Source of the DNA: a virus
Reading direction: 5' to 3' (one strand)
Virus record (IMG/VR): IMGVR_UViG_3300032116_000692
Location: 1 to 35,338 of that record
DNA length: 35,338 nt
The notes under the pieces were generated by a model. It saw only the letters and a list, made by a program, of their open reading frames with translations. It was not told where the DNA came from and searched no databases. How positions within the stretch are numbered: the stretch's first letter is position 1; each line of letters begins with the position of its first letter. The position numbers and the translations under genes were made by a program. Positions 1 through 6,004 of this stretch are shown piece after piece.

Positions 1-9
1 TAGGTCGTC

Positions 10-86
10 TAATTACCTTGGTCGGTAATTATCCTCCTACTATGTATAAGCCGGGATAAGGGGTGTTTATCCCACCCTAAGGGGTG
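10..86. repeat. Three consecutive short inverted repeats
   Basis: Three near-adjacent hairpins are visible. Positions 10-17 (TAATTACC) pair perfectly with 24-31 around a 6-base loop. Positions 53-59 (GGGATAA) pair perfectly with 67-73 around a 7-base loop. Positions 73-77 (CACCC) pair with 82-86 around TAAG. None is followed by a T run, so they do not look like simple terminators. Operator sites, an origin or an RNA leader are possible; the function is not known. Confidence 0.6.
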
Positions 87-310
87 TGATTTACCTCACA
101 GTCTATCCAATGCAGTCAAATATGGCTTTGACCTGCGGTTTTACTGTCTCGGATCCTATCAAAAATTTTAGAGTGGGTACATATATACACAGGGTGGTGG
201 CATATAAAGCACTCGGGTCATTTTGCCGGGGCGTGTCGAACCAGCTAGTTTACATAATGCATATTATCGGCGACCAGTTTGGGGGCATTTTGTGGAGACT
301 TGCAGGGCAT

Positions 311-520
311 GGCAGACCCTCAGGAACTAGGCACCTTTCAAAGTTCCCCAACTAACCAACCGCCTAGGGTCTCCAGTACTTGGCAGGGGGGGCAGGGGTC
401 AGGGGCAGGGGGCAGAACTGGCAGGGCAGACCTTCAACCTTTGACCCATTGGGCAGACCATCGCCACGGATCGCAAAGCATCCACGCCAAGGATCGAGAA
501 CCCTCCACGCTTGGCAGACC
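311..520 (+). repeat. Dispersed GGCAGACC 8-mer, four copies
   Basis: The octamer GGCAGACC occurs at 311-318, 425-432, 452-459 and 513-520. It is interleaved with variants of CCACGC followed by TTGG or CAAGG near 482, 505 and 537. All copies are on the same strand in the non-coding stretch before the rightward operon. Repeats of this kind can be protein-binding iterons, but spacing is irregular and no binding protein is identified. Confidence 0.45.
386..412 (+). promoter_or_regulatory. G-quadruplex-forming motif
   Basis: Four G runs occur in immediate succession: seven G at 386-392, four at 395-398, four at 402-405 and five at 408-412, separated by loops of 2, 3 and 2 bases. This meets the standard definition of a stable intramolecular G-quadruplex with four tetrads. 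It sits about 260 bases upstream of the first rightward gene, on the coding-sense strand, so it could act in DNA or in a long 5' leader RNA. Confidence 0.65.
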
Positions 521-669
521 CCAAGGGGAAGCAGTTCCACGCTTGGAACCCCTCGAGCTGGACTTCGAGCTACAGGAAAACCCTTCCCGAAATGCTTCCA
601 ATCTGACCCCGAAAATGGGAGAATGGAACCCTCGAGGGCATCCTCGAGACCTAGAGAAAAGGAATCAGA

Positions 670-981
670 ATGAAACTCAAGAACCAAGACCAAGCATCCG
701 AAGCAATCCAAAATCGAGAAGCGTTTCTTGCTTCTGCATTGTGGGCAATAGATGGAAGAAGCAACACCTACGGAATGCTCAACCCTGAAGAGATTGAACA
801 ATATGAAGCAGTTCGAGATTCGATTGACTTCGTGGTCATGTCTTACAAAACCCCAATCGCTTGGCACTCTTCTGCTGGTTGGTACATGGTCAAACAGAAG
901 TTTTCTGTGACTACTTCACGCCATCAGGGAATCGTTAGAAGGGCATTGAATAGCAAAGGATTAGTCGAGGTTTCACGATGA
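670..981 (+). CDS. Small phage protein, first gene of the rightward operon
   Basis: The product is 103 residues with no signal peptide or membrane segment. It has a distinctive central stretch, YKTPIAWHSSAGWYMV, followed by KFSVTTSRHQ at about residues 58-85, a pattern I associate with small uncharacterised phage proteins (DUF8033-like), without a known activity. The start is supported by AGAAAAGGAATC placed just before the ATG. The stop overlaps the next start as ATGA, so the two genes are probably translationally coupled. Its leader resembles those following the two ribozymes downstream. Function unknown. Confidence 0.7.
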   Translation: MKLKNQDQASEAIQNREAFLASALWAIDGRSNTYGMLNPEEIEQYEAVRDSIDFVVMSYKTPIAWHSSAGWYMVKQKFSVTTSRHQGIVRRALNSKGLVEVSR

Positions 982-1349
982 AAACTTTCACCGCTTTCAT
1001 TGTCTGCCAATCGTTAGACATTCAAGCCGAAACAATCGAAGAAGCAGAGGAAAGATATTCAGAGTTCTTCGATGGAGGGGAATCATGTGCAAAGCATGAA
1101 GAAGATTGTGACTGCTTCTCCTTCGATGATTCAAATGTCTTTCATTACTTCGAAGAAGAAAACGAATCCGCTTCGTGGAAGTTGGTTCACCGATTGGCTT
1201 CTCAAATCTTCGAGAAGTTCGGAGAAACTGAATCATTTCTCTATCTTGTCGAACAGATAGCAGAAGCAACCGAAGAAGATCCCATGAAAACCCTCTACGA
1301 GGTCAAGGCATACACCGACCGACAAACAAGGGAGGACATGGCGAGTTAG
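978..1349 (+). CDS. Small acidic protein of unknown function
   Basis: The product is 123 residues and strongly acidic, with many Glu and Asp. Its N-terminus (MKTFTAFIVCQSLDIQAET) followed by a Glu-rich helix looks like the small beta-alpha fold seen in DpnD/PcfM-like phage peptides, but this is only a resemblance. Four cysteines fall between residues 10 and 46. The start overlaps the previous stop as ATGA. The TAG stop at 1347-1349 lies inside stem II of the first hammerhead ribozyme, so ribosomes finishing here would run into the ribozyme. No function can be assigned. Confidence 0.7.
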   Translation: MKTFTAFIVCQSLDIQAETIEEAEERYSEFFDGGESCAKHEEDCDCFSFDDSNVFHYFEEENESASWKLVHRLASQIFEKFGETESFLYLVEQIAEATEEDPMKTLYEVKAYTDRQTREDMAS

Positions 1350-1407
1350 TCGAAACCCCTTCGGGGGTCTTCGGTGGGGTGGTTCCCCCCGAACTGATGA
1401 GACAAAC
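1345..1407 (+). ncRNA. Type II hammerhead ribozyme, copy 1
   Basis: All conserved core parts are present in type II order. GUC at 1349-1351 pairs with GAC at 1401-1403 (stem II), extended beyond an A-A mismatch by GUU 1345-1347 with AAC 1405-1407. The core GAAA is 1352-1355. Stem III is A1355-U1368 plus CCCC 1356-1359 with GGGG 1364-1367, closed by a UUCG loop. The cleavage triplet GUC ends at 1369. Stem I is UUCGG 1370-1374 with CCGAA 1389-1393, a bulged U, then GGGG 1376-1379 with CCCC 1385-1388. CUGAUGA is 1394-1400. Predicted scission is between 1369 and 1370, in the intergenic gap, leaving the next gene with a 5' hairpin leader. Confidence 0.93.
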
Positions 1408-1426
1408 CACTAGAGAAAGGGTCAGA

Positions 1427-1684
1427 ATGTACGAAGTAAAGAAAGTCCGACTCTTCGAGAACTCTCGAGGAATGATTGGACACACTCTCCACATCTACAG
1501 AGGAGAGAAGGAAATCGGGGAGTCCACCCATGACGGAGATTCCCTCTGCTACGACATCCGATTTATCTACTCCAGCGAGGAATGCGACTTCCTTGCAGAG
1601 TTCGGGGATGCACAAGATGGAGTTGACCAACTCCTCACCGCTTACGAAGACCGACTCCTCCACGGATCGAAGAAGGGGGCGTGA
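1427..1684 (+). CDS. Small protein downstream of hammerhead copy 1
   Basis: The product is 85 residues starting MYEVKKVRLFENSRGMIG. I chose ATG 1427 because GAGAAAGGGTCAGA precedes it and because any longer frame would run through the ribozyme core. It is mixed alpha/beta with an acidic middle (YSSEECDFLAEFGDAQDG). There are no membrane segments or recognised motifs. The following gene starts at the stop codon (GTGA), indicating coupling. After ribozyme cleavage this would be the first cistron of its RNA. Function unknown. Confidence 0.7.
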   Translation: MYEVKKVRLFENSRGMIGHTLHIYRGEKEIGESTHDGDSLCYDIRFIYSSEECDFLAEFGDAQDGVDQLLTAYEDRLLHGSKKGA

Positions 1685-2139
1685 GGTTAGAGATGCAAAT
1701 CGAGCTACAGGAAAAAAGATTCCACGAATCTGTTGCACCTTGCAAAGATTTCGTGGCACATCCACACATGGTTGATTATGAAGTTCACGATATGAATGGG
1801 AACTTCCTACGGATGGAACACGGCGGTTGTTATGTCTGCCGATGTTCTTCTGTTGCTGAAAGTGATGGAAGCAATGAACTTGCTCTTGCTCTCGAAGATG
1901 CTGGCATCAAATGCCAAGTCGAACAGACTGGTGGGTTCTGCATGGTGGTCTATGTCTACTCAGAAGATATGAAGAAGGCATTGACCCTGACCACCGATGC
2001 CATTGGGTTCGAACCCGATGTCGAGGAAGGCATAGAGGAATGGGTTGACCTGACTCCAACTGAGGTTGCAGAAGGAAAGACTGCAATCGAAACGCTAGTC
2101 GAAACAACCAAGGCAAACCTTTGGAGGATTGGAAAATGA
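1681..2139 (+). CDS. Hypothetical cysteine-containing protein
   Basis: The product is up to 152 residues from GTG 1681, which overlaps the previous stop as GTGA; ATG 1693 is an alternative start. A central GGCYVCRCSS segment and further cysteines at about residues 21, 98 and 107 could bind metal but do not form a family pattern I recognise. The sequence is acidic overall and soluble. Its stop overlaps the next ATG (ATGA at 2136). Part of the string of coupled small genes; function unknown. Confidence 0.65.
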   Translation: MRLEMQIELQEKRFHESVAPCKDFVAHPHMVDYEVHDMNGNFLRMEHGGCYVCRCSSVAESDGSNELALALEDAGIKCQVEQTGGFCMVVYVYSEDMKKALTLTTDAIGFEPDVEEGIEEWVDLTPTEVAEGKTAIETLVETTKANLWRIGK

Positions 2140-2444
2140 AAACTGGAATGACTTACATCTGCTCAACTTGTTGGGCAGAAGCATCAACGAATGCTGATTA
2201 TGAAAAGCACATGGACATCTGCCAACCCGACAGAGTTCGAATGACTGACCGCAAGAACATCAAGGTCGGCGACCAATGGTTCGACATGATGTTCTTCTCA
2301 GATGGTTCGATTCAAAGAACTTGCATCTCTTATGTGATGAAGGATGGGAAGAGAGTGGCGATTCCAGATTGCCAAGCAAGGGTCTCTGATTGGGAAGCGA
2401 AGTGGCACTACTGCAAGAACTGCGATTGGAATCAAGCATCGTAA
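2136..2444 (+). CDS. Small zinc-finger-like protein
   Basis: The product is 102 residues from ATG 2136, chosen because it overlaps the preceding stop as ATGA. The N-terminus shows YICSTCW, then EKHMDIC about 16 residues later, a C-x2-C-xn-H-x3-C arrangement typical of a C2HC zinc finger. A second CxxC (YCKNC) lies near the C-terminus. It may bind nucleic acid or a host protein; that is inference from the fingers alone. The TAA stop at 2442-2444 is inside stem II of hammerhead copy 2, mirroring the arrangement at copy 1. Confidence 0.7.
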   Translation: MKTGMTYICSTCWAEASTNADYEKHMDICQPDRVRMTDRKNIKVGDQWFDMMFFSDGSIQRTCISYVMKDGKRVAIPDCQARVSDWEAKWHYCKNCDWNQAS

Positions 2445-2505
2445 GTCGAAACCTCCCTTCGGGGAGGTCATGGGGAACTGGTCAACCCCATCTGATGAGA
2501 CAGAC
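2441..2505 (+). ncRNA. Type II hammerhead ribozyme, copy 2
   Basis: It has the same architecture as the copy at 1345-1407 with different stem sequences. GUC 2445-2447 pairs with GAC 2499-2501 (stem II). GAAA is 2448-2451. Stem III is A2451-U2468 plus CCUCCC 2452-2457 with GGGAGG 2462-2467 around UUCG. The cleavage triplet GUC ends at 2469. Stem I is AUGGGG 2470-2475 with CCCCAU 2486-2491 around a 10-base loop. CUGAUGA is 2492-2498. Stems I and III differ from copy 1 while keeping pairing, which is covariation within one genome. Predicted scission is between 2469 and 2470. Confidence 0.93.
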
Positions 2506-2526
2506 CACTAGAGAAAAGGAACAGAT

Positions 2527-2679
2527 ATGAAACTAACGAAGAGAGGAAAGCGAGTTCGTGCAGTAGCAATACTTCTCGGGATCATCGCTATCTATTATGT
2601 AATGACCCACATTTGGTGGGTTGGAGACCACTACTGCTGGGGCAGTATGGTCGAGTGCTACTTCGAGGAGGGAAAGTAA
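2527..2679 (+). CDS. Small single-span membrane protein
   Basis: A 50-residue peptide with a basic N-terminus (KLTKRGKRVR) and one hydrophobic segment at about residues 11-33 (AVAILLGIIAIYYVM), followed by an aromatic and acidic C-terminus with two cysteines. The positive-inside rule suggests the N-terminus is cytoplasmic. AGAAAAGGAACAG gives a good ribosome binding site. It is the first gene after hammerhead copy 2. The stop overlaps the next start as TAATG. Function unknown; a membrane-targeted role is inferred. Confidence 0.7.
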   Translation: MKLTKRGKRVRAVAILLGIIAIYYVMTHIWWVGDHYCWGSMVECYFEEGK

Positions 2680-2951
2680 TGAACAAAGCTGAAACTTTCC
2701 TCGATATGAACTACAAAGAATGGGAAGCAAAGTACAAACCAATCGCCAGCGAAGATGGCTCTTGGTTCCATGACGATGCTGAGAAGTTGAAGACCTTCGA
2801 TCCTAAACAGATTTGGACTTGGGTCTCTGAGGGAGATAGCGATTGGATTTACAACGGATATCGCTGGATAAACAGACTCTCTTACCTAGTGACTGAAGTT
2901 GCTTGGCAAGAAGGCGAAGACATCTGTGTCGTAGTAAGGGAGACCAAGTAA
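2679..2951 (+). CDS. Small aromatic-rich hypothetical protein
   Basis: The product is 90 residues from ATG 2679, chosen because it overlaps the previous stop (TAATG) and follows GAGGGAAAG. It is rich in Trp, Tyr and acidic residues, for example WTWVSEGDSDWIYNGYRW. It has no membrane segment and no metal-binding pattern. Both borders are TAATG overlaps, so it is translated as part of a coupled chain. No homologous family is recognised. Confidence 0.65.
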   Translation: MNKAETFLDMNYKEWEAKYKPIASEDGSWFHDDAEKLKTFDPKQIWTWVSEGDSDWIYNGYRWINRLSYLVTEVAWQEGEDICVVVRETK

Positions 2952-3094
2952 TGACTGACCTAAACAATGAAGTGAAGGAACTTCACAAGTTGATTGGCGA
3001 TTCATATTGTCGCTATGAGTTATCAGAAGATGCTTACAACCATTGGTTGAAGTTGGCAGGAATACAGATACAGGAGGTATCAAGTAATGCCTAA
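2951..3094 (+). CDS. Small helical hypothetical protein
   Basis: The product is 47 residues from ATG 2951, overlapping the previous stop. The sequence (MTDLNNEVKELHKLIGDSYC and onward) is predicted to be mostly helical. It ends in the ribosome binding site of the next gene (CAGGAGG) and overlaps it by eight bases. No family recognised. Confidence 0.6.
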   Translation: MTDLNNEVKELHKLIGDSYCRYELSEDAYNHWLKLAGIQIQEVSSNA

Positions 3095-3260
3095 GTTCAA
3101 AGTGAAGTATGTGTATGAACGCTGGTATGACCTCGAGCTGGAGGCTTCGAGTCGAGAGGAAGCACTCGATAAGTTCCATGCCGGTGATTTCGAAATCGAA
3201 TCAAGGCTTGTCGGCGGCGAACTTCAAGATTCGGTGGTCATTGAGGAGGTCTTGGCATGA
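3087..3260 (+). CDS. Small hypothetical protein
   Basis: The product is 57 residues (starts MPKFKVKYVYERWYDLELEA). A strong ribosome binding site, CAGGAGGTATCAAGTA, precedes ATG 3087. The first part looks like a beta-strand pair, followed by an Ala/Glu helix (SSREEALDKFH), a layout shared with small DpnD/PcfM-like phage peptides; this is a weak resemblance. The stop overlaps the next start as ATGA. Confidence 0.6.
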   Translation: MPKFKVKYVYERWYDLELEASSREEALDKFHAGDFEIESRLVGGELQDSVVIEEVLA

Positions 3261-3418
3261 ACATTTATGACGAGAACAACAACTGCATCGAATGCATGGA
3301 GTACTTCTACGATCCGCATCAACCTGATTGCAAGTACTCAGATGTCTGTGGCATCTGCGATTGCAAATGGGAATCATTCAGCAAGTCACTTGCCATCCAT
3401 TGGAAGGTGAACAAATGA
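3257..3418 (+). CDS. Small cysteine-rich, probably zinc-binding protein
   Basis: The product is 53 residues starting at ATG 3257 (ATGA overlap with the preceding stop). Cysteines fall at residues 10, 13, 25, 31, 34 and 36 (CIEC, then DC, then CGICDC), with a histidine at 21. Two CxxC pairs suggest a zinc ribbon or knuckle. The C-terminus is basic and aromatic (KSLAIHWKVNK). No named family is recognised. The stop overlaps the next ATG. Confidence 0.65.
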   Translation: MNIYDENNNCIECMEYFYDPHQPDCKYSDVCGICDCKWESFSKSLAIHWKVNK

Positions 3419-3630
3419 ACCACGGAAAACGACTTGAGAGAATAGCCAAAGCCCAAGCCAAGGCTTTGATTGGAACTCTTACCTTGTTAGATGATGAAGG
3501 TCTAGGTGATAGCGACCTTTCTGCATTGCGAGGTTCACTTCGATCATGGATTGAACACATAACTCCTATCAGGGAAAGTAAATGGGATAGAAAAGTCCAC
3601 GATGATACAGACTGCGAGGTAGAAGAATGA
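3415..3630 (+). CDS. Small helical hypothetical protein
   Basis: The product is 71 residues starting MNHGKRLERIAKAQAKALIG. I use ATG 3415 because it overlaps the previous stop as ATGA. The N-terminal half is a basic amphipathic helix and the C-terminal end is acidic (DDTDCEVEE). No membrane segment or catalytic motif is seen. The next gene also starts in an ATGA overlap. Confidence 0.65.
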   Translation: MNHGKRLERIAKAQAKALIGTLTLLDDEGLGDSDLSALRGSLRSWIEHITPIRESKWDRKVHDDTDCEVEE

Positions 3631-3815
3631 CTGAAAAGCTACAGAGAATCATCGTGTCCATCTATTCAAGCGATAACAATCTCCTTCTTGGAGACCTATC
3701 TCGCCGACTCGATGGGTTGGAATGGTGGATTACTGACCGCCAATCCATCGAACTTGGTGAAGAAACAATCAGAGTCATAGACACAACCAAATGGAAAGAG
3801 GAGGGTCAGGAATGA
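3627..3815 (+). CDS. Small hypothetical protein
   Basis: The product is 62 residues (MTEKLQRIIVSIYSSDNNLL start). It begins inside the stop of the previous gene and ends overlapping the next start, so it belongs to the coupled chain. It has alternating hydrophobic strands and a WW pair in the middle (GLEWWITDRQS). Function unknown. Confidence 0.6.
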   Translation: MTEKLQRIIVSIYSSDNNLLLGDLSRRLDGLEWWITDRQSIELGEETIRVIDTTKWKEEGQE

Positions 3816-3997
3816 AGTACACATTCAATGCGGTATTCGAAACCAACAGACCGCTAACACAGAAAGAGTTCGATGACATCGAGAACACATTGCGATTGCA
3901 ACTCGATGAACCTTGGGTCGAACAAGGTGATGGACAATGGGATGATGCCGAGTTCGATCTATCGGTGATCACCTGTGAGATGAAGCAGGAGGGTTGA
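3812..3997 (+). CDS. Small hypothetical protein
   Basis: The product is 61 residues from ATG 3812 (ATGA overlap; GAGGAGGGTCAGGA ribosome binding site). It starts MKYTFNAVFETNRPLTQKEF and is predicted alpha/beta and acidic. An N-terminal strand followed by a helix with FDDIENTLRLQL resembles many small phage peptides without known activity. The stop TGA shares its last base with the next ATG. Confidence 0.6.
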   Translation: MKYTFNAVFETNRPLTQKEFDDIENTLRLQLDEPWVEQGDGQWDDAEFDLSVITCEMKQEG

Positions 3998-4125
3998 TGG
4001 GGTATGTACTCTTCTTCCTTTCCTTCTTCACCTTCCCACTTGGTATGAGTGAAGACTCACCCATACTGATGACGATTCCCTTCCTTGTATGGACAGGGGC
4101 AATCCTCTTTGGAGGAGAAAGGTAA
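3997..4125 (+). CDS. Tiny two-span membrane peptide, holin candidate
   Basis: The product is 42 residues. The ATG at 3997 overlaps the TGA of the previous gene (TGATG) and follows AGGAGGGT. Two hydrophobic segments are visible, at about residues 3-17 (YVLFFLSFFTFPLG) and 23-38 (ILMTIPFLVWTGAILF), separated by a short acidic turn (SEDSP). It ends three bases before the ATG of the Rpf-like muralytic gene. Small two-span proteins beside a lytic enzyme are often holins, which form pores in the cytoplasmic membrane; the assignment rests on context and topology only. At 42 residues it is shorter than usual holins. Confidence 0.55.
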   Translation: MGYVLFFLSFFTFPLGMSEDSPILMTIPFLVWTGAILFGGER

Positions 4126-4128
4126 ACA

Positions 4129-4539
4129 ATGCACCGACTTATCATCGGTGGTCTCTTGTTGGGGGCGGTACTCATATCGCCCCCACTCAAGACCATTGAA
4201 ACCAAAGCTGAAACAAACCTCGTGGTTCAAGACATTCCAGTCGTGATTCACTACGAGGATATGACCTTCGATCATCTGCCACCGGCATGGCAGAAGCTGG
4301 CTATGTGTGAGAGTAGCGGCAGATCGAACGCAGTAGCAGGAACAAAGAAGCAGTTCCAAGGCTACTTCCAAATCGAATATCCCCGGACTTGGGTTGCTCA
4401 CGGCGGCGATAGCGGCACACCACCCAAGAAGGCAACCCTGATGGAGCAGTTCCATGTGGCACTACACATCTATGCTGACCGAGGATCGAAGCCGTGGCCA
4501 TACTGTGGCAAGTTCCTGAAGGCGGAATACGGCAAATAG
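4129..4539 (+). CDS. Rpf-like transglycosylase (resuscitation-promoting factor domain)
   Basis: The product is 136 residues with an N-terminal hydrophobic segment (residues 4-19, probable signal peptide or anchor) and a C-terminal domain of about 85 residues with the Rpf pattern: W54, LAMCESSGR 57-65, GYFQI 78-82, TW 87-88, a GG and the PWPYCG end. Glu61 matches the catalytic glutamate of the lysozyme-like fold, and Cys60 and Cys126 match the conserved disulfide. The family cleaves the glycan backbone of peptidoglycan and is typical of Actinobacteria and their phages, which supports the host call. It is the last gene before the operon terminator and may act in lysis or in host cell-wall opening. 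Confidence 0.88.
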   Translation: MHRLIIGGLLLGAVLISPPLKTIETKAETNLVVQDIPVVIHYEDMTFDHLPPAWQKLAMCESSGRSNAVAGTKKQFQGYFQIEYPRTWVAHGGDSGTPPKKATLMEQFHVALHIYADRGSKPWPYCGKFLKAEYGK

Positions 4540-4554
4540 TGGTACGATAAATGT

Positions 4555-4610
4555 AGTGGATCTGATCCTCCACTCTAGGGAAAGGCCCCCTCTTCGGAGG
4601 GGGTTCTTTC
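4555..4610. terminator. Hairpin terminator between convergent operons
   Basis: CCCCCTC at 4586-4592 pairs perfectly with GAGGGGG at 4597-4603 around a UUCG tetraloop, followed on the + strand by TTCTTTCATTT. The reverse complement is equally stable, so the hairpin can serve both the rightward operon ending at 4539 and the leftward operon ending at 4609. A smaller hairpin (AGTGGA 4555-4560 with TCCACT 4569-4574) sits just upstream. Confidence 0.82.
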
Positions 4611-4800
4611 ATTTACGGAAGTTATCTGTAGAGTAGAAGCCAGTAGCTTTGAATATCGTAGGTGTAGCTGAATACTTTCTCACCAATGTATTGCCACACT
4701 CTCTAGTTGGACAATCATAATCTTCTTCAGGATCGTTGAACCCACGGACAATCTCAACAACATTGCCACAACCCGGGCATTCGTAATCATACCTAGCCAT
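4609..4800 (-). CDS. FmdB-type zinc ribbon protein
   Basis: The product is 63 residues. It opens MARYDYECPGCG, continues with DPEEDYDCPTRECG and ends with a Phe/Gly motif TIFKATGFYSTD, which matches the FmdB-family putative regulatory zinc ribbon from end to end. Paired cysteines at 8/11 and about 30/35 should hold one zinc. Members are often found in phage and bacterial genomes as small presumed regulators. It is the last gene of the leftward module, overlapping its upstream neighbour by eight bases, and abuts the terminator. Confidence 0.82.
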   Translation of the reverse strand: MARYDYECPGCGNVVEIVRGFNDPEEDYDCPTRECGNTLVRKYSATPTIFKATGFYSTDNFRK

Positions 4801-5266
4801 AGTAACCTCTAAACTTTCTCAACTTATCCTCAGGTACACAATAGATCTCAGGTCTACGCCAGTCAGGTTTATCCAACCACTCTTCCTTCTTTGCTTCGGC
4901 ACCCATAATCCAACCGATGAGTTCGTAGTTCGGCATACCACCACGGACAAGAACAAACTTGATGTCATCCTTTGCATCTGGTCTGACTAACAATCTGCCC
5001 TGCTCATGTCGTGTGTACTTCACATCTATATTCGGTTCAATATCAACACCACCTTGACCGAATGCACCAGACCAATAGACACCTAAGTATTTGGCGACAG
5101 CAATCTCTGCTCCGCATCCATCGACATCAAGAAGTATTCGCTGCCATGGATCGAGGTCACCAAGACCACGCATCTGTTGGTTCTTCATCGTAGATACATA
5201 TCGTTCTACTGCTGTGTTCACCGCCATTACAACCTCATATCTTTCGAGGTTGATCTTTACGCCCAC
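4793..5266 (-). CDS. Putative PD-(D/E)XK-like nuclease fold protein
   Basis: The product is 157 residues from a GTG start at 5266; ATG 5227 is an alternative after GAGGTTGTA. The central region shows an Ala/Glu helix (CGAEIAVAKYLGVYW), then GGVDIEPNIDVKYT, where Asp, Asp and Lys are spaced like the metal-binding residues of the PD-(D/E)XK fold, then a strand FVLVRG. A family of such small phage proteins is known to me without biochemical proof. The start overlaps the stop of the sigma-like gene. Catalytic function is inference. Confidence 0.5.
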   Translation of the reverse strand: MGVKINLERYEVVMAVNTAVERYVSTMKNQQMRGLGDLDPWQRILLDVDGCGAEIAVAKYLGVYWSGAFGQGGVDIEPNIDVKYTRHEQGRLLVRPDAKDDIKFVLVRGGMPNYELIGWIMGAEAKKEEWLDKPDWRRPEIYCVPEDKLRKFRGYYG

Positions 5267-5892
5267 GGCGTTGGCCCTCCAAGGTGGTCAATAATCTTTC
5301 GAAGTATCTTCTGAATCCTGCGATCTACTGTGGAGTCAGAGACTCCCATCGCTTTGGCTATATCAGATAGTGTCATTGGGGAAGCTCCGTATCTGAGGTC
5401 GAGTATGTACTGTTCATCTTTATCAAGTAGTTCAAGTGCTGATCGAATGTCAATCACCATGGCAAGAAGATTGCCACCCTCATTGGGTGCTGGTGAGCGG
5501 CGTGGTTGTCCATCGTCTACCTTGTCAACGAGAACTACACCCTTCGAATCAAACTGAAATGCAACAGGAAGAAGTTCTGCTACCTTGGCGGTGTCGTAGA
5601 AGAACTCATCACCTGTTGAATAGCCAAGCATTGTTGCCTTCTCTTTACGAGAATACTTTTCGATATGACGGCGGAACCTAGCCATAATCTTCCGGGCAAC
5701 CCACTTGGTTTCATCTTTGCTGACTGTGTAAGAAGCATCAAGATCTTCTTCAAGTTTGGGTCGTTGAAGTACATAGACATTCAACTCTTGAACCAAGTCT
5801 TTATACTCTACATAGCCAGCAAATCTGCGGTGGATAGTATGAGAAGAGATGTTGATTAGATCGGCAAGATGTTCTTTGGCTCGATCACTCAT
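5257..5892 (-). CDS. Sigma-70-like regulator with C-terminal helix-turn-helix
   Basis: The product is about 211 residues. I prefer ATG 5892 because ATGAGTGA overlaps the stop of the upstream membrane peptide, the same coupling signal used at 6426; an in-frame ATG at 5907 would add five residues. The N-terminal half carries a helical region (YVEYKDLVQELNVYVL) like sigma region 2. The C-terminus has DKDEQYILDLRYG then MTLSDIAKAMGVSDSTVDRR, a good sigma region 4 helix-turn-helix. It could redirect host RNA polymerase to phage promoters. The region 2 match is weak, so a sigma-like HTH regulator is the safe call. Confidence 0.7.
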   Translation of the reverse strand: MSDRAKEHLADLINISSHTIHRRFAGYVEYKDLVQELNVYVLQRPKLEEDLDASYTVSKDETKWVARKIMARFRRHIEKYSRKEKATMLGYSTGDEFFYDTAKVAELLPVAFQFDSKGVVLVDKVDDGQPRRSPAPNEGGNLLAMVIDIRSALELLDKDEQYILDLRYGASPMTLSDIAKAMGVSDSTVDRRIQKILRKIIDHLGGPTPWA

Positions 5893-6004
5893 CGAGTAAA
5901 TCACCATCTTCTATCTCTAGGATTGCATCAATCACAAACCTGACTGCAAAATACAACGATGTAATTACAAGAATCGGAACCAAAAAAAAGAGGAGCTTCT
6001 TCAT
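5885..6004 (-). CDS. Tiny membrane peptide
   Basis: The product is 39 residues, starting MKKLLFFLVPILVITSLYFA. The ATG at 6004 overlaps the TGA of the Nmad1-like gene (ATGA), and its own stop lies inside ATGAGTGA of the sigma-like gene, so it is embedded in the coupled chain. It has one hydrophobic span at about residues 4-25 and an acidic tail (EIEDGDLLDE). No function known; small phage membrane peptides of this kind sometimes act on host membrane processes, which is only a guess. Confidence 0.6.
   Translation of the reverse strand: MKKLLFFLVPILVITSLYFAVRFVIDAILEIEDGDLLDE

Follow-up and report, generated by a model that had tools for sequence, protein, structure and literature searches.

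Why would a phage operon of small, tightly packed genes carry two RNAs with the hallmarks of self-cleaving ribozymes? We addressed this question in a 35,338-base virus sequence (IMGVR_UViG_3300032116_000692, hereafter "the window"), for which an initial annotation had proposed two type II hammerheads reading in the direction of the surrounding genes. A search of the window with Rfam returned Hammerhead_II (RF02276) at 2444-2509 (copy 2, 46.0 bits, E 1.7e-6) and at 1348-1411 (copy 1, 40.2 bits, E 5.5e-5), both on the plus strand and above the gathering score of 37 bits, and no other credible RNA family in the 35,338 bases. A descriptor composed of the core and the three stems gave exactly two matches in the window, the same copies, and none in approximately 0.7 Mb of shuffled sequence. 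Both copies match GAAA, GUC, and CUGAUGA exactly, in agreement with the type II invariants (GAAA, GUH, and CUGANGA), and stems I and III are closed by loops while stem II is open, which is the type II order. The predicted cuts at 1369/1370 and 2469/2470 agree with the Rfam core alignment. In each copy, loop I also forms a pseudoknot with the 3' tail (6 pairs in copy 1 and 5 in copy 2). Since this pairing had been missed earlier and extends the units, the elements stand but their limits do not: 1345-1407 and 2441-2505 become approximately 1349-1410 and 2445-2507.

Stem I and stem III sequences differ between the two copies with pairing intact in both, as first proposed, and close relatives, which keep both ribozymes, also change both sides of pairs. 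Paired cells were counted on a structure-based parse because MAFFT, run on both copies jointly, aligned the tails wrongly. In the relatives, 4/18 pairs of copy 1 and 4/20 pairs of copy 2 (8/38) are changed on both sides, and 0/210 cells are unpaired across both copies. In L167, which is approximately 80% identical to the window in the operon, stem II changes from GUC/GAC to GGC/GCC (U-A to G-C) and the pseudoknot from UGGUU/AACCA to UGGCU/AGCCA (U-A to C-G). A stem I G-C is replaced by A-U in L006, and copy 2 of L272 has stem I pairs changed on both sides and a stem III one pair shorter. The catalytic core was inspected for loss in the relatives examined and is invariant except at the tolerant position 7 (U, A, or C). 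In L167, copy 1 carries one additional A between the core and stem II, which could weaken that ribozyme. Thermodynamic folding of the whole ribozymes against shuffles gave no excess stability (z of -0.11 and 0.14), so the evidence for ribozymes comes from the match to the core, from the family model, and from covariation. Taken together, the two copies are almost certainly genuine type II hammerhead ribozymes. The core CUGA is also complementary to UCAG 5' of the start codon; we took this as chance, since the pairing is absent in L167 and the leader is also found without a ribozyme.

The rightward operon spans 670 to 4539 with approximately 15 small genes, and a terminator-like hairpin lies downstream of its last gene (Table 1). 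Its junctions are overlaps of 1 to 8 nt nearly throughout, and the widest gaps without a ribozyme are 8 and 3 nt. Only two gaps exceed 8 nt, and each of these (77 and 82 nt) consists of a ribozyme and a ribosome-binding leader. The stop codon of unit A (TAG 1347-1349) contributes its G to stem II of copy 1, and that of unit B (TAA 2442-2444) directly adjoins copy 2. Some gene calls inside ribozymes are gene-caller artefacts. The operon had been described as ending in lysis-type genes; this is supported for its last gene only, the transglycosylase-like gene at 4129-4539 (PF06737, 45.1 bits). No other operon protein tested had a Pfam match, and the first (670-981) was the only one with a PHROGs match, to families of unknown function. 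In L003, L009, and L167, an extra small gene (approximately 125 nt) precedes copy 2, and the ribozyme still adjoins the last stop codon. The extra gene, which is absent in the window, encodes a cysteine-rich, zinc-ribbon-like protein (L003:3534-3659, minus strand; L167:6459-6587). A gene has apparently been gained or lost precisely where the ribozyme marks the boundary.

Table 1. Coordinates of the operon, its hammerheads, and two-hairpin RNA sites of related loci (window positions unless a locus is named).
Feature	Position	Strand	Description and basis
Hairpin and leader ACCUAGAGAAAAGG	631-669	+	Hairpin 631-648; ahead of gene 670; no ribozyme
Translation unit A	670-1349	+	Two overlapping genes, 670-981 and 978-1349; ORFs and gene chain
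Hammerhead copy 1	1349-1410	+	Rfam RF02276 (40.2 bits), descriptor, compensatory changes
Copy 1 stem II	1349-1351 / 1401-1403		GUC / GAC
Copy 1 core	1352-1355; 1394-1400		GAAA; CUGAUGA
Copy 1 stem III hairpin	1355-1368		UUCG loop; C17 is 1369
Copy 1 stem I hairpin	1370-1393		
Copy 1 pseudoknot	1379-1384 / 1405-1410		Loop I GUGGUU / tail AACCAC
Predicted cleavage site, copy 1	1369-1370	+	Bond after C17, from core alignment
Leader UAGAGAAAGGGUCAGA	1411-1426	+	Ribosome-binding site AAAGGG 1416-1421, ahead of ATG 1427
Translation unit B	1427-2444	+	Genes 1427-1684, 1693-2139 (or GTG 1681), 2136-2444
Hammerhead copy 2	2445-2507	+	Rfam RF02276 (46.0 bits), descriptor, compensatory changes
Copy 2 stem II	2445-2447 / 2499-2501		GUC / GAC
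Copy 2 core	2448-2451; 2492-2498		GAAA; CUGAUGA
Copy 2 stem III hairpin	2451-2468		UUCG loop; C17 is 2469
Copy 2 stem I hairpin	2470-2491		
Copy 2 pseudoknot	2479-2483 / 2503-2507		Loop I UGGUC / tail GACCA
Predicted cleavage site, copy 2	2469-2470	+	Bond after C17, from core alignment
Leader	2508-2526	+	Ribosome-binding site AAAAGGA 2514-2520, ahead of ATG 2527
Translation unit C	2527-4539	+	Ten small genes; junctions overlapping or ≤3 nt
Transglycosylase-like gene	4129-4539	+	Last of operon; Pfam PF06737, 45.1 bits
Intrinsic-terminator-like hairpin	4584-4605	+	End of rightward operon
Two-hairpin RNA	L274:3269-3341; L271:3980-4052; L284:2196-2270		Among other sites
Two-hairpin RNA	L289 (G010):1055-1130, 2197-2267, 3387-3459		

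The leader of gene 670 is almost the same as the leader downstream of both ribozymes and is kept in L167. A sigma-70 promoter scan of positions 1-5000 found sites no more frequent than in shuffles; with no operon promoter found, a single transcript is an assumption. On the minus strand, 5257-5907 encodes a sigma-factor-like protein (phrog_351, E 2e-13), and phage promoters may thus differ from sigma-70 sites. A nucleotide search of named phages gave a single match of 66 bases, to Streptomyces phages, which leaves the operon with no annotated relative among them. Among named phages (1,451 records), helicase matches fall almost entirely on actinobacteriophages, which makes an actinobacterium the probable host. 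In the relatives L003, L007, and G010, approximately 5.1 kb separate the two ends of the window (1 and 35338); the window probably lacks this part of a full genome of approximately 40.5 kb.

Is the position of the two ribozymes particular to this operon? Scans with a type II pattern found at least 119 loci in IMG/VR and 50 in bacterial genomes; the pattern held a single stem II sequence (GUC/GAC), and the survey therefore does not sample all hammerheads. Among the matches listed, 146 of 180 distinct viral hammerheads with flanks had a stop codon within 10 nt upstream, compared to 10% of random places, and in 122/180 the first strand of the ribozyme lay on the stop codon or within 3 nt of it. 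Taking one ribozyme from each of 112 independent sequence clusters, again among the matches listed, we found a stop codon within 10 nt in 83 and, in 72, a start codon within 60 nt as well. This combined setting was found in 2/112 cases on the opposite strand and at 57/2240 random places (2.5%). The comparison shows a strict general placement rule of stop, hammerhead, ribosome-binding site, and start. Among the matches listed, a single copy was the commonest case, and all 55 loci with at least two hammerheads had every copy on one strand. The longest arrays listed held 8 (L071 and L125), 7 (L046), and 6 (L230) hammerheads, mostly one ribozyme per gene. L071 (8125-11317) and L125 (3617-6699) are viral contigs, and L230 (8-2844) is contig NZ_BLYC01000024.1 of a Bathymodiolus gill symbiont genome. 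The first of the eight L071 descriptor matches (8127), with its long stem III, falls slightly short of the Rfam cut-off; it is likely a hammerhead. Pseudoknots of at least 5 Watson-Crick pairs formed with a loop's own tail in 50% of cases and with a swapped tail in 7% (198 unique loops among the matches listed).

We used the operon-end gene to collect 80 related loci. Where the hammerhead is absent, a gap of like kind (77-109 nt) holds a two-hairpin RNA in the order stop, long GC-rich hairpin, short hairpin, ACCUA, ribosome-binding site, and start. Across 16 sequences, 12/20 of its pairs are changed on both sides and 95.9% of cells are paired, with a covariation score of 0.492 compared to 0.210 for shuffled and at most 0.130 for slid sequences. 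All 51 distinct copies checked adjoin a stop codon, and 48/51 precede a start codon. We dropped the reading that this RNA is another known ribozyme class because Rfam at permissive E-values gave no ribozyme and no other credible family at G010 and seven further two-hairpin loci. It was also rejected as a decayed hammerhead; no trace of the core is left in it, and in its commonest form it lies after another gene (the p3627 homologue). The palindromic words CTCGAG and GATC are very abundant in the G010 operon (L168:15300-20700, minus strand), in contrast to its homologue in the window.

A covariance model of the two-hairpin RNA matched only in hammerhead-free operons and gave no match in the window; we discounted its minus-strand matches, which mirror the same hairpins. 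The 80 loci comprise 13 with hammerheads only, 51 with the two-hairpin RNA only, none with both, and 16 with neither, and all 16 of the latter are short fragments in which the upstream sequence does not exceed 1,656 nt. In the tree of the operon-end protein, the hammerhead loci L272 and L283 are nested in the two-hairpin clade, which implies at least two switches between element types. L272, which has two hammerheads, has also lost the two-hairpin element that its relatives carry after the p3627 homologue. The junctions are not strictly equal, with the hammerheads preceding the 1427 and 2527 genes and the commonest two-hairpin RNA following the 3627 homologue. The operons thus have a principle in common and not an exact site, and the switch probably accompanied the exchange of a gene module. 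Both element types follow the order stop, hairpin, hairpin, leader, and start, and the predicted hammerhead cut would fall between its two hairpins. The two-hairpin RNA seems to do the same job as the hammerheads. That it is itself an undescribed self-cleaving RNA or an undescribed dedicated processing site, such that these phages exchange unrelated modules for RNA cutting at their operon boundaries, is a speculative extension that we consider rather unlikely.

Our model, which we regard as probable, is that co-transcriptional cutting punctuates the polycistronic phage mRNA into units with structured ends. The operon would be transcribed as one RNA to the terminator near 4605. Each ribozyme would fold on leaving the polymerase, held by the loop I/tail pseudoknot, a pairing with covariation support, and would cut at the sites predicted from the intact core. 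The upstream mRNA would then terminate in stem III, a stable UUCG hairpin bearing a 2',3'-cyclic phosphate, no more than approximately 25 nt from its stop codon, and the downstream mRNA would start with a 5'-OH directly on the stem I hairpin, its tail pseudoknot lying beside a strong ribosome-binding site. As the likeliest outcome, the rightward transcript would be divided into three RNAs, turning an otherwise coupled gene chain into three units with protected ends that could be translated and degraded independently. In the sister phages, the two-hairpin RNA has the corresponding placement and excludes hammerheads, and it may serve the same function at unit boundaries.

The two-hairpin RNA can also be turned against this model. 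It has no recognisable catalytic core, occupies the same stop/RNA/start setting, and never occurs with hammerheads, and the essential part may therefore lie elsewhere than in cutting. The fold between stop and start codons might itself block re-initiation and coupling or shield the RNA, cleavage being incidental. A catalytic core maintained only for its fold would drift, yet both copies in the relatives examined preserve it (bar position 7) at approximately 20% nucleotide divergence; we consider this explanation unlikely. Cleavage might instead lower expression, the exposed ends speeding decay and setting a low level or a time limit for the unit. Ribozymes can down-regulate, with glmS a known natural case (cited in PMC3088659). 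However, both new ends would be structured, the 3' end by stem III with its UUCG loop and the 5' end by stem I, directly ahead of a ribosome-binding site. Stem III hairpins among the matches listed often have UNCG (64 of 250) or GNRA (50 of 250) loops, and the hammerhead insulator RiboJ increases transcript and protein (PMC6206723). Lowered expression is to us an improbable purpose.

We hold it equally improbable that cutting is regulated, with terminating ribosomes or a phage or host factor holding the ribozyme open so that cleavage reports translation or the stage of infection. The first strand overlaps the stop codon or begins no more than 3 nt away from it in 122/180 of the listed matches, and a terminating ribosome there would cover stem II and GAAA. 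However, the other operon junctions overlap, and general tight packing explains the spacing without regulation; there is also no attached ligand-binding domain. By far the least plausible proposal is that the two cuts free segment 1370-2469 to be ligated or circularised. One segment flanked by two hammerheads does recall circular RNA replicons, but Perreault et al. sought spliced and circular products and found none (PMC3088659), and most loci among the matches listed have a single copy.

Cutting of polycistronic phage messages has precedents to which our model can be compared. In phage T7 early mRNA, RNase III cuts intercistronic structures to leave stable mRNAs ending in hairpins. Intercistronic RNA structures would serve as cut points in both systems, with the difference that T7 relies on a host protein and the RNA here bears its own predicted catalyst. 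Closer still are the prophage clusters of type II hammerheads described in 2011 by Perreault et al., which flank genes or short gene blocks (PMC3088659). The likeness covers the core, stem order, short stem II, and loop I/tail pseudoknot, itself already published there, as well as the position between same-strand genes in phage DNA with several copies per operon. Tandem hammerhead transcripts were reported there to cleave in vitro, and an Agrobacterium triple array in E. coli. With two coding-strand copies flanking gene blocks, the window pair belongs to this published kind, and the initial annotation overrated the tandem arrangement as notable. The window differs in being a probable actinobacterial phage from the IMG/VR collection, and the passages of PMC3088659 consulted do not describe the stop/ribozyme/ribosome-binding-site/start rule, arrays of 6 to 8, or alternation with another RNA. 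In the open-access papers searched, we found neither these placement statistics nor such arrays, nor the alternation with an unclassified covarying RNA. The HDV-like theta ribozymes of gut phages are likewise self-cleaving RNAs in phage genomes but of another class, tied to tRNAs and recoding and not to protein-gene junctions (PMC10879173). RiboJ, an engineered ribozyme insulator that raises transcript approximately twofold in E. coli, also places a hammerhead 5' of a ribosome-binding site and leaves a 5'-OH transcript, as predicted here (PMC6206723). It is synthetic, uses another hammerhead, and acts in a single promoter-gene context, whereas the present ribozymes are natural, intercistronic, and duplicated (PMC6206723).

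The role of hammerheads in bacteria and phages was an open question in a 2017 review (PMC6155905). It becomes testable through the placement rule, arrays of as many as eight ribozymes, and most of all the natural swap with a second RNA within one operon family. If our model is true, these phages would punctuate their long messages with RNA catalysts, as a natural equivalent of the RiboJ insulator.
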